Source: Rhodanobacter sp. FW104-R8
GTDB lineage: Bacteria; Pseudomonadota; Gammaproteobacteria; Xanthomonadales; Rhodanobacteraceae
Length of the DNA stretch: 64,000 nt
Reading direction: 5' to 3'
Assembly: GCF_001617365.1 (NCBI RefSeq)
Contig: NZ_LVJR01000009.1
Location: 1-64,000 of the forward strand
The first letter of the stretch is position 1. Every line of letters begins with the position of its first letter. The translations under genes were made by a program, and so were the position numbers. Under the pieces are notes generated by a model, which searched no databases, was not told the DNA's origin, and saw only the letters and a list, made by a program, of their open reading frames with translations. Below, piece by piece: positions 22,103-33,943 of the stretch.

Positions 22103-22990
22103 ATGGGTCAGCAGCACGACGCTTACTTCGTTCCAGCCAAGAGCACCTGGCCTTTCGTGGCCGCGGTGGTCATGTTCATCACCGTGTTCGGTGCCGCGCA
22201 CTGGCTGAACGCCGAGCCCGGCGACGCCGGCTTCGGCAAGACCGTGCTGAGCGTCGGCGTGATCGGCGTGCTGGGCATGTTCTTCGGCTGGTTCCGCTCG
22301 GTGATCAACGAGTCGCTGGCCGGCAGCTACAACCACCAGGTGGACACCTCGTTCCGCATGGGCATGATGTGGTTCATCTTCTCCGAGGTGATGTTCTTCG
22401 GCGCGTTCTTCGGCGCGCTGTTCTACATCCGCATGTTCTCGGTGCCGTGGCTCGGCGGCCACGGCCACGGCGTGCTGACCCATCAGTTCCTGTGGAGCGA
22501 CTACGCCGCCGCTTGGGGCGCCAATGGCGGCAACGGCCCGGAGCAGGCCGGCGGCGCGTTCCGCACCGTGCCGGCGTGGGGGCTGCCGCTGCTGAACACG
22601 CTGATCCTGCTCACCTCCAGCGTCACCGTGACGATCGCGCACCATGCGCTGCGCGCCGGCCACCGCGGCAGGATCCTGCTGTTCCTGGGCCTGACCGTAT
22701 TGCTCGGCGCCACCTTCCTGTACTTCCAGGCGCACGAGTACATCGAGGCGTACAAGGAACTGAACCTCACCCTGCACAGCGGCGTCTACGGCTCGACCTT
22801 CTTCCTGCTCACCGGCTTCCACGGCCTGCACGTGACGCTGGGCACGATCATGCTGGCGGTGATCTGGCTGCGCGTGCTGAAGGGCCACTTCAACAAGGAG
22901 CACCACTTCGGCTTCGAGGCGGTGGCCTGGTACTGGCACTTCGTCGACGTGGTCTGGCTCGGCCTGTTCATGTTCGTCTATATACTTTGA
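22103..22990 (+). CDS. coxC: Cytochrome c oxidase subunit III
   Basis: 295 residues, seven membrane helices, the non-redox core subunit that stabilises the oxidase. Motifs include MGMMWFIFSEVMFFGAFFGALFY-type helix III with the conserved Glu, QAHEYIEAYKELNLT and the C-terminal GFEAVAWYWHFVDVVWLGLF signature. Last of the core subunit genes; a palindromic element pair and a bidirectional terminator follow. Confidence 0.96.
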   Translation: MGQQHDAYFVPAKSTWPFVAAVVMFITVFGAAHWLNAEPGDAGFGKTVLSVGVIGVLGMFFGWFRSVINESLAGSYNHQVDTSFRMGMMWFIFSEVMFFGAFFGALFYIRMFSVPWLGGHGHGVLTHQFLWSDYAAAWGANGGNGPEQAGGAFRTVPAWGLPLLNTLILLTSSVTVTIAHHALRAGHRGRILLFLGLTVLLGATFLYFQAHEYIEAYKELNLTLHSGVYGSTFFLLTGFHGLHVTLGTIMLAVIWLRVLKGHFNKEHHFGFEAVAWYWHFVDVVWLGLFMFVYIL

Positions 22991-23055
22991 CGCGACATCC
23001 TGTCGCGGAAGGCGAAGGTCAAGAACCGGCCATCCGTGGCCGGACTCTTCAAAAA
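22991..23055. repeat. Palindromic interspersed element, copy A
   Basis: Two-hairpin element: CGCGACA-TCC-TGTCGCG, a GAAGGTCAAGAACCGGCC arm, then GGCCGGACTCTTCAAAAA. It begins immediately after the coxC stop. The same family recurs at 23068 and inside dnaG (33224-33290). Confidence 0.8.
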
Positions 23056-23067
23056 GGCAGGACTTCA

Positions 23068-23177
23068 CGCGACTTCCCGTCGCGGAGAGCGAAGGTCAAA
23101 AACCGGCCATCGGGCAACGGCTCCTGCGTTGCCTCAACTCGGGCATCCATGCCCTCGCCATGGCCGGACTCTTCAAA
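23068..23177. repeat. Palindromic interspersed element, copy B (expanded)
   Basis: Starts CGCGACTTCCCGTCGCG, shares the GAAGGTCAAAAACCGGCCAT arm and the ATGGCCGGACTCTTCAAAG end of copy A, but the loop carries two extra mini-hairpins (GGCAACG/CGTTGCC and GGGCAT/ATGCCC). Direct neighbour of copy A. Confidence 0.8.
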
Positions 23178-32155: not shown

Positions 32156-33943
32156 TCAGGCCGAGGCCACCGGCGGCCGTGCGCGGGCGGCCAGCAGTTC
32201 GCGCAATTCGGCTTTCTCGGCGGAGTCCAGCCGGCCTTCGCGGCTCTTCGCGGTCAAGGCGTCGCGGCGCTGGGTGCAGGCCTGGTCCTCCATCCGCGCC
32301 AGCGCGTCGAAGAATTCGGTGCGCTGGCTTTCCGGTTCGCCCACCGACATCGCCGCCATCAGTTTCTGCAGCGAGGGGTATTCCGGCCGCTCGGCGAAGT
32401 GCTCCACCAGCATCGCGGAATTGATGCCGGGGCGGGCGCGGGCCAGGTCGAGCAGTTCGGCCAGCAGCTCCACGCCTGGCTTGTCCAGGCGCAGGAAGCG
32501 GTAAGGCCTTTCCACTTGGTCGGCCATGCCTGGCTGCGCCAGCAGCAGCGAGATCGCGCTGCGCACCAGGCTGCGCTGCACCGCCACCGGCCGCTGCACA
32601 GCGCGGTGCACGGCCGGATCGGCCTGCAGCAAGGCGCGCGCGCCGCTGCGCTTCTCCAGCTCCTGCCCCATCAGGTCGCGGAACGCGCCATCGGGCAGTT
32701 TCGCGATCAGCGGGCGGGCGCGCTCGGCCAGCCGGGCGCGGCCATCGAGGCTGGCCATGTCGACATCGTGCGACAGCTCGTTGAAGAAGTAGTCCGACAG
32801 CGGCATCGCTTCCCGGATGCGCTTTTCGAAACCCTCCTTGCCTTCCTTGCGCACCAGCGTGTCCGGGTCCTCGCCGTCGGGCAGGAACAGGAAGTACGCC
32901 TGGCGGCCGTCGCGCAGGCGCGGCAGCGCGGATTCCAGCGCCTTCCACGCCGCGGCGCGGCCGGCGCGGTCGCCGTCGAAACAGAACACCACGTCCGGCG
33001 CGGCGCGGAACAGCACCTCGGTGTGCTCGGGCGTGGTCGCCGTGCCCAGCGTGGCCACCGCGATCGGCAGCCCGGCCTGGTGCAGCGCGATCACGTCCAT
33101 GTAGCCCTCGACCACCACGATCCGCTGCAGGTTCGCGTTCGCCTGCTTCACCTGCCACAGCGCGAACAGCTCGCGGCCCTTGTGGAACAGCGGGGTCTCC
33201 GGCGAGTTGAGATACTTGGGGCCTTCACTCTTGCGCGCGTCCTGCGCGCGAGGATCAAGAACCGGCGATCCCTCGCTGGACTTTTGGATAACCCTCCCGC
33301 CGAACGCGATCACCCGCCCGCGGCGGTCGAGGATGGGGAACATCAGCCGCTCGCGGAAGCGGTCGTACTTGCTGCCGCGTTCGCTGGAGGCGACCATGCC
33401 GGCCTCGTTCAGCAGCTCCATCCGCCGCGGGCTGTTGCCCAGCGCCTTGATCACCCCGTCGTAGCCGGCCGGCGCCCAGCCGAGGCGGAAGCGCTTGATC
33501 GTTTCCGCGTCCAGCCCGCGCTTGCCGCAGTACGCCTGGGCGTCGGCGCTGCGCGGCAGCTCGCCTTCGTACCAGCTGGCGGCGGCGTCGAGCAGGGCAT
33601 ACAGGTCGGTCTTGTCCTCGCGCGGGCGCTCGTCGCGGCCGCCCTCGCGCGGCACGGTGAGGCCCACCGTCTGCGCCAGCTCCTCCACCGCGTCCGGAAA
33701 CTCCAGCCGCTCGTAGTCCATCAGGAACTTCACCGCGCTGCCGTGCGCGCCGCAGCCGAAGCAGTGGAAGAACTGCTTGGCCGGGCTGACGTAGAACGAG
33801 GGCGTGCGCTCGTTGTGGAACGGGCAGCAGGCGGTCCACTCGCGTCCGGCCTTCTTCAGCGGCACGCGCCGCTCGATCACGTCGACGATGTCGACGCGGG
33901 CAAGCAGTTCATCGATGAAGCTGTCGGGAATCAGGCCGCGCAT
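32156..33943 (-). CDS. dnaG: DNA primase DnaG with in-frame palindromic insertion
   Basis: 595 residues. DnaG makes RNA primers for replication. CHC2 zinc finger: Cys40, His43, Cys61, Cys64. The polymerase core follows with VVEGYMDVIALHQAG and VFCFDGDRAGRAA TOPRIM motifs, and then a C-terminal helicase-binding region. Between GGRVI and GPKYLNSPETP, where homologues have only a few residues, 21 extra residues (220-240) are encoded by bases 33224-33286, which are a copy of the palindromic element found after coxC. The frame is kept. Part of an rpsU-yqeY-dnaG arrangement, but rpoD does not follow. Confidence 0.96.
   Translation of the reverse strand: MRGLIPDSFIDELLARVDIVDVIERRVPLKKAGREWTACCPFHNERTPSFYVSPAKQFFHCFGCGAHGSAVKFLMDYERLEFPDAVEELAQTVGLTVPREGGRDERPREDKTDLYALLDAAASWYEGELPRSADAQAYCGKRGLDAETIKRFRLGWAPAGYDGVIKALGNSPRRMELLNEAGMVASSERGSKYDRFRERLMFPILDRRGRVIAFGGRVIQKSSEGSPVLDPRAQDARKSEGPKYLNSPETPLFHKGRELFALWQVKQANANLQRIVVVEGYMDVIALHQAGLPIAVATLGTATTPEHTEVLFRAAPDVVFCFDGDRAGRAAAWKALESALPRLRDGRQAYFLFLPDGEDPDTLVRKEGKEGFEKRIREAMPLSDYFFNELSHDVDMASLDGRARLAERARPLIAKLPDGAFRDLMGQELEKRSGARALLQADPAVHRAVQRPVAVQRSLVRSAISLLLAQPGMADQVERPYRFLRLDKPGVELLAELLDLARARPGINSAMLVEHFAERPEYPSLQKLMAAMSVGEPESQRTEFFDALARMEDQACTQRRDALTAKSREGRLDSAEKAELRELLAARARPPVASA
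33224..33290. repeat. Palindromic interspersed element, copy C, inside dnaG
   Basis: Plus-strand GCGCGCGTCCTGCGCGCG, then ATCAAGAACCGGCGATCC and TGGACTTTTGGATA, aligns to copy A at 22991-23055 (shared TCAAGAACCGGC core, same stem position, same GGACT-TT end). It contributes 21 sense codons to dnaG. Confidence 0.8.

Follow-up and report, generated by a model that had tools for sequence, protein, structure and literature searches.

The dnaG Gene and Its Insert

The window, meaning the whole stretch of 64,000 nucleotides of Rhodanobacter sp. FW104-R8 that was analysed, carries on its minus strand, at 32156..33943, the gene dnaG for a DNA primase of 595 aa, whose assignment is based on Pfam and on alignment with 1dd9 and whose ORF runs uninterrupted across the insert described here. 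Pfam recognises the Zn_ribbon_DnaG, DNAG_N, Toprim and DnaB-binding domains. When DnaG is aligned with the E. coli primase 1dd9 (E 2.8e-103), 18 DnaG residues directly after FGGRV remain unmatched. The codons of the extra residues (...IQKSSEGSPVLDPRAQDARKSEG...), delimited by translation and by an alignment of 28 DnaG proteins, occupy 33224..33290 on the minus strand, and the insert is flanked by R217 and K243, both invariant among the 28 aligned proteins. In the E. coli primase, the equivalent positions are R221 and K229, which are basic residues of the active site. An earlier reading of the letters (the sequence-only reading) had placed the extra residues exactly between GGRVI and GPKYLNSPETP; this needs a correction, as the codons that directly follow GGR vary together with the element, VL following GGR in 62/62 empty alleles vs 4/44 filled alleles of the relatives compared below.

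Within this segment, at 33231..33288 on the plus strand, lies a palindromic element, which is matched by the covariance model R1 with 59.1 bits and a whole-genome E of 4.7e-12. Since the element is on the plus strand while dnaG is on the minus strand, dnaG reads the reverse complement of the element, which is called orientation A. Hairpin 1 (GCGCGCGTCCTGCGCGCG, 33233..33250, plus strand) is seen in the sequence and in the pairing and covariation of the family, and hairpin 2 (CCGGCGATCCCTCGCTGG, 33262..33279, plus strand) is seen in the sequence and corresponds to helix 2 of the family; where the sequence-only reading had noticed one self-complementary stem, the element has two hairpins. The shared core that had been pointed out, the 12-bp TCAAGAACCGGC, does occur in exact copies at 23019 and 33255, but alone it is weak, as 10 places with at most two mismatches are found vs 5.2 expected, and 6/100 shuffles reach 10. 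A BLAST search of the same genome with 111 bp around the dnaG insert found 33 places at E ≤ 10, the seven best beyond the query itself having E values of 2.4e-6 to 0.03. In the window, no Rfam family matched at the gathering score, and no tRNA was found.

The Repeat Family in the Genome

The genome to which the window belongs is a 3.72 Mb draft in 124 contigs. R1 was built from 8 aligned copies of this genome, all outside dnaG, and describes a two-hairpin repeat about 59 bp long, in which the hairpins have 6 and 7 bp. In these 8 copies, both sides have changed in 5/13 pairs and 92.3% of the cells pair, vs a shuffled mean of 80.8%; the observed covariation score was reached by 0/500 shuffles. 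At E ≤ 1, the genome has 69 R1 matches; 58 of them, including that in dnaG, reach E ≤ 0.01, a number that may be low, since the scoring covered only 150 of 1462 first-look candidates. As R1 was modelled without dnaG and nevertheless finds the dnaG segment among its 58 matches, the segment is a dispersed repeat encoded in frame in dnaG. The central claim of the sequence-only reading, a palindromic repeat inside dnaG with the frame open throughout, is thereby confirmed, and the covariance search that it had proposed gives an element that is not unique to dnaG.

Two intergenic copies lie behind a gene identified as COX3 (E 3.2e-58), whose stop ends at 22990: one at 23000..23052 (plus strand, R1 E 3.8e-8) and a second in the same direction at 23080..23176 (plus strand, R1 E 3.0e-4), which has a longer hairpin 2. 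Both are found by R1, in agreement with the likeness previously noted between the dnaG segment and the element after coxC. Same-direction pairs of copies, with starts about 60–70 bp apart, also occur elsewhere in this genome, at C23:89630/89699, C16:74466/74529, C28:164706/164773, C4:32399/32461 and C23:83148/83210. The element consensus is nTGCGnTCGTCCCTGAnCGCGAGG...CACTCTTCAA; a terminal GTAG or CGTC tag is absent from both of its ends, CGTC being confined to the loop of hairpin 1. As for the hallmarks of MITEs, judged by eye only, the consensus ends are unlike mutual inverted repeats, the junctions are variable and there is no clear target duplication.

With regard to a candidate mover, the Y1/RAYT transposase family (PF01797) has no match in the window's genome, for which RAYT mobilisation is rejected on this ground. 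Transposases of the Y1/RAYT type are found in 36/45 genomes of the genus (96 matches). In the 10/96 loci examined, no significant element stands beside the transposase, and one locus has two weak matches (E 0.19 and 0.35).

Other Genes Carrying the Element

In addition to dnaG, in-frame copies are found in the same genome in mutS, recJ (twice), gcvP, pheT, ppsA, dapE and an ABC-F-like gene, giving nine copies in eight genes; the proposed search for other proteins with the same insert thus yields eight in-frame copies in seven further genes. Of the 58 matches, 57 were checked for coding, 55 by script and the two beside COX3 by direct reading. The screen is a codon-composition heuristic that may miss cases; a stricter census missed the mutS of genome G001, and a looser one also lists antisense and doubtful ORFs. 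Antisense and doubtful ORFs were kept only where the gene could be named from a solved homologue or from Pfam, and nine therefore counts the identified cases and not all possible ones. The orientation of in-gene copies was taken from peptides and strand comparison.

Compared with the best solved homologues, MutS has about 18 residues more over the aligned stretch, PheT 17 and PpsA 18 extra residues; GcvP has 10 extra residues where its homologue has a shorter loop, and in DapE the query residues 91–110 stand between two aligned blocks. For RecJ, the alignment with the solved homologue is broken at the first insert and gapped at the second and is hence less clear, though the inserts are clear against relatives. 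The ABC-F-like gene, an ATPase with two ABC domains, is named from Pfam only, without an empty-homologue comparison. Two closed relatives were also screened and have in-frame copies in mutS (two adjacent copies, G001) and recJ (G044), and the dnaG of G001 is also filled. At the G001 mutS locus (L269), the adjacent copies are both in frame and read RALVPDRENQEAGVASAIIPDRGNQKAAIHGRTLQ.

Within the genus, the mutS site is filled in 9/30 loci read (one from DNA only) and empty in 21/30. RecJ has three polymorphic sites, with empty alleles in the majority at each: site 1 is filled in 8/30, site 2 has orientation B in 5/30 and A in 3/30 plus three shortened B-like forms, and site 3 is filled in 4/27 readable loci. 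Since dnaG and recJ site 2 are each filled in A and B, two sites bear both orientations. The recJ of the window's genome has at site 2 (L338) a third, diverged A-like insert, GEHTKGRALVDTGDQDDRKS, outside the nine counted copies. By eye, the PDLS codon following recJ site 2 (L338–L367) is mostly CTT in filled alleles of both orientations and mostly CTG in empty ones, a difference that would possibly mark a short linked tract.

Reading Frame and Predicted Peptide

A single frame is used per orientation in 11/11 in-gene copies examined, which, being mutually related, are not 11 independent trials. The five antisense copies encode a peptide of the type EECGxGSPLLDxRAQDAR, and the six sense copies encode DREDQEAAIHGRTPQ. 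Each of the 11 also has one or more other open frames. In eight of them, the sole other open frame is less hydrophilic than the used one, and in three (mutS and gcvP of the window's genome, and pheT) a third, more hydrophilic open frame is left unused. The insert residues would be present in the proteins as made, given the open frames. The insert peptide, of about 16–21 residues, is hydrophilic and, according to the models, probably disordered: AlphaFold predictions of DnaG give pLDDT < 50 at 221–259 in orientation A and at 222–243 in orientation B, although the models are modest (mean pLDDT 74, pTM 0.45 and 0.50) and the low stretch of A extends past the insert. Minority letters at the three codon positions number 42/23/70 in 13 orientation-A dnaG inserts and 38/32/42, with little bias, in 12 orientation-B inserts; in three B-type 39-residue sites the variable insert columns are at third positions in 6/6.

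The dnaG Site in Rhodanobacteraceae

A total of 106 dnaG loci were read, 45 from the genus and 61 others, the latter mainly the best among matches in 190/197 family genomes; Rhodanobacter, Dyella, Frateuria, Fulvimonas and Luteibacter are among the named relatives of the window's dnaG, which places the lineage in Rhodanobacteraceae. With site states assigned from peptide patterns, 62 loci are empty, 17 have the element antisense (A, as in the window), 19 have it sense (B) and 8 have other inserts (O), which are short, decayed, mosaic or unlike the element. The stretch FGGR..YLNSP has 18 residues in the 62 empty loci and 23 to 47 in the other 44, whose inserts have 10 different lengths and are in frame in 44/44 cases. 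In the genus only, the short 18-residue form is present in 28/45 genomes, and the alignment with relatives that had been set as a test for the sequence-only reading therefore finds that the extra residues are not common to all. Depending on the species, the same place in dnaG is filled in one orientation or the other, and mutS and three recJ sites likewise vary between filled and empty by species; that reading had noticed neither point.

R1 recognises the element at the dnaG site at E ≤ 0.0031 in 32/100 loci (six empty loci left out), namely in 32/44 filled and 0/56 empty ones, leaving 12/44 inserts unrecognised at this threshold. The matches are 15 A and 17 B by strand, with zero conflicts with the peptide pattern; seven weak R1 matches (E 0.06–0.93) lie elsewhere in the fetched dnaG loci. 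Among the named loci, 50/80 are empty, and each of the names Rhodanobacter, Dyella and Frateuria includes filled loci of both orientations.

Some individual loci stand apart. The insert of L132 (dnaG of G066) has a mosaic look, its first half resembling B and its end (TQDARKSDG) resembling A, which suggests recombination between alleles of opposite orientation. In L092 (G011:C27:120903-122587), a dnaG of the genus is in two pieces, query 1–256 and 277–594, with the break downstream of an empty site; a frameshift, an assembly error or decay may each account for it. The dnaG match of L134 (G045:C29:21615-23393) has one in-frame TGA.

Distribution of the Family

R1 matches at E ≤ 0.001 in 45/45 genomes of the genus, with 3 to 54 matches each. 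An order-wide search of 200 genomes under stricter filters, with scoring limited to 27 candidates per genome, gave 51 genomes with a match at E ≤ 0.001 and 149 without. Among them, 35/52 listed genomes of the same family match at E ≤ 0.001, and so do 16 genomes of other families, none of them with more than two matches (best E 2.5e-11). The repeat is chiefly one of Rhodanobacteraceae, located mostly between genes and also within protein-coding genes.

Origin and History of the Inserts

A quick dnaG tree, built without the insert and with some long branches, needs 35 changes for the four site states, vs a shuffled mean of 40.5, a value as low in 1/200 shuffles; for empty vs the rest it needs 26 changes, of which at least 18 are forced by starred branches. 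For instance, L042 (A) and L053 (B) are well-supported tree neighbours, and L040 (empty) is placed together with L034 (B), from which it diverges by 4.0%. Whole-gene transfer of a filled dnaG is rejected on account of this scatter of the states over the tree of the remaining gene. Inserts of the B type in genera g22 and g6 are 94–95% identical, even though their dnaG genes differ by about 17%.

The nearest relative of an in-gene copy is a copy at the same site and in the same orientation in 62/65 cases; dnaG copies were nearest another dnaG copy in 36/36 cases when compared with 94 non-dnaG copies of three genomes and, after more recJ and mutS copies were added, in 35/36, one being nearest a mutS copy. 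Some host codons at the ends favour same-site matches in this comparison, and its intergenic copies come from three genomes only. Given these 62/65, the in-gene copies resemble old alleles that can be exchanged and that decay more than they resemble fresh insertions. Synonymous codons flanking the insert have a mean z of 0.99 with respect to its state at -9..+9, compared with a gene median of 0.48 and a best window elsewhere of 1.46; long linked tracts are rejected, as the association of flanking third positions with the state does not stand out there. No clear linkage of the flanking synonymous codons to the insert state was seen, though exchanged tracts should leave some. Some close pairs of unlike state appear to have extra SNPs within seven codons, and an empty–empty pair also has 4/21 on one side.

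These observations are probably best explained, with good confidence in the reading as a whole, by the dnaG segment being a copy of a non-autonomous mobile two-hairpin repeat that entered both ways and whose alleles have been exchanged and are decaying. Such a repeat would insert in genes and add a short loop; the same dnaG loop would have been entered at least twice, once per orientation, or the insert would have been turned round in place. The dnaG alleles would then have spread among species, most likely via very short recombination tracts, and filled alleles would decay through in-frame deletion. With moderate confidence in the exchange step, the sequence comparisons point to a few old insertions whose alleles were exchanged on very short tracts and then decayed; the repeat family, its in-frame position, the two orientations at one site, the empty sites of close relatives and the site-specific sequence lineages are direct observations, and the number of entries, the short-tract recombination and the original transposition are put here as a reconstruction.

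Recurrent fresh insertion, in which an active enzyme moves the intergenic copies of each genome into a few permissive loops, would also account for states scattered on the gene tree, for both orientations and for differences between close species, and Y1-type transposases are indeed present in 36/45 genomes of the genus; at G044 recJ site 2 a copy of the own genome reaches 0.84 vs 0.83 for the best same-site copy, and in the mutS of G000 the values are 0.83 and 0.84, respectively. It is nevertheless unlikely, as for 62/65 in-gene copies the closest match is at the same site in another species, the dnaG copy of the window has a best same-site copy at 0.89 and a best own-genome copy at 0.72, and the window's genome is without a Y1 match, and the 10/96 Y1 loci examined are without a significant element. 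Ordinary indels in a disordered DnaG loop, with the likeness to the repeat a GC-rich coincidence, would fit the variability of the loop and the 8/106 alleles with short or unrecognisable inserts, but the match at E 4.7e-12 from a model without dnaG, the presence of both hairpins in the right order, the occurrence of the element in seven further genes and the 149/200 genomes of the order without a match at E ≤ 0.001 (stricter filters) make this scarcely credible, and for the window copy it is refuted.

It is also conceivable, though improbable, that the insert has been selected as a functional part in DnaG, RecJ and MutS, such as a regulatory or partner-binding loop, derived from the repeat by chance. 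The third-position excess of orientation A (70/135 minority letters), the 6/6 variable columns at third positions in the three B-type 39-residue sites and the recurrence of replication and repair genes (dnaG, mutS, recJ), as for the REPs described in PMC3733652, would agree with selection. On the other side, empty alleles make up 62/106 at dnaG, 21/30 at mutS and the majority at every recJ site, two unrelated peptides serve one site, decayed forms persist and disorder is predicted; the insert peptide appears to be tolerated rather than useful. As to an over-representation of replication and repair genes, eight genes are too few to judge. A bolder reading would make the palindrome an exchangeable cassette at fixed loops (dnaG, mutS and three recJ sites) throughout a bacterial family, swapped between empty, forward and reverse on very short tracts; by swapping cassettes in replication and repair enzymes, species would let the element alter the fidelity or recombination machinery on which it depends, thereby aiding its persistence, and this is regarded as a long shot. 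The preferred reading remains that of old, exchanged and decaying copies of a mobile repeat.

Comparison with Known Systems

Rickettsia offers the best-known palindromes read in frame, and some other bacteria have REP cases, so that the kind of element is already known. Rickettsia palindromic elements (RPEs) are described as dispersed palindromic repeats lying in frame within unrelated genes and thought to be tolerated (PMC10969869, PMC6649704). Similarly, the present family is scattered in and between the genes of one genome (58 matches, nine in genes), and its copies are in-frame insertions absent from homologues, such as the 44/44 dnaG inserts in frame. The likeness to RPEs drawn in the sequence-only reading is therefore apt in the sense that the two work alike, as a likeness of kind. 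RPEs are about 150 bp as first reported and belong to an intracellular alphaproteobacterium (PMC10969869), whereas the present element has 59 bp and two hairpins and belongs to a mostly environmental gammaproteobacterial family, in which one essential-gene site is filled both ways.

REPs, which are GTAG- or CGTC-tagged, have been reported within replication and repair genes of several bacteria, and in recB of two Xanthomonas species different REPs are described at about the same site (PMC3733652). The present element differs from them in being without a terminal GTAG/CGTC tag and in that no RAYT was found in its genome, and dnaG, mutS and recJ are not named among the REP genes in sections 6 and 15 of PMC3733652. 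PARCELs are protein-encoding palindromic DNA likely spread by horizontal transfer (PMC2996958); unlike the present element, they are described as tandem arrays of 25-residue units in ORFs to which no function is assigned, and membrane-targeting sequences are present in many. The enterobacterial repeats RU-1/RU-2/RU-3 of the ERIC type are intergenic and also intragenic with open frames (PMC2759123), and are set apart by their description, as they are longer (103–168 bp) and belong to another lineage.

Among the top-ranked results in open-licence papers, no report of the present family was found, nor of dnaG, mutS or recJ inserts in the lineage. The sequence-only reading knew of no such case described for this lineage, and within these papers this stands for the element itself, but in-frame REPs have already been reported in genes of Xanthomonas and Stenotrophomonas, as described in PMC3733652. 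Since no report was found in the open-licence literature, the repeat is called a new family, and what is new is that one essential-gene site is filled both ways across the family.

Significance

Close species of this largely environmental family, for which many genomes exist, offer one and the same loop of an essential enzyme for comparison in its empty, forward and reversed forms. This comparison makes an old question testable, namely whether in-frame palindromes are merely tolerated and how they arrive in frame, are exchanged and are lost.
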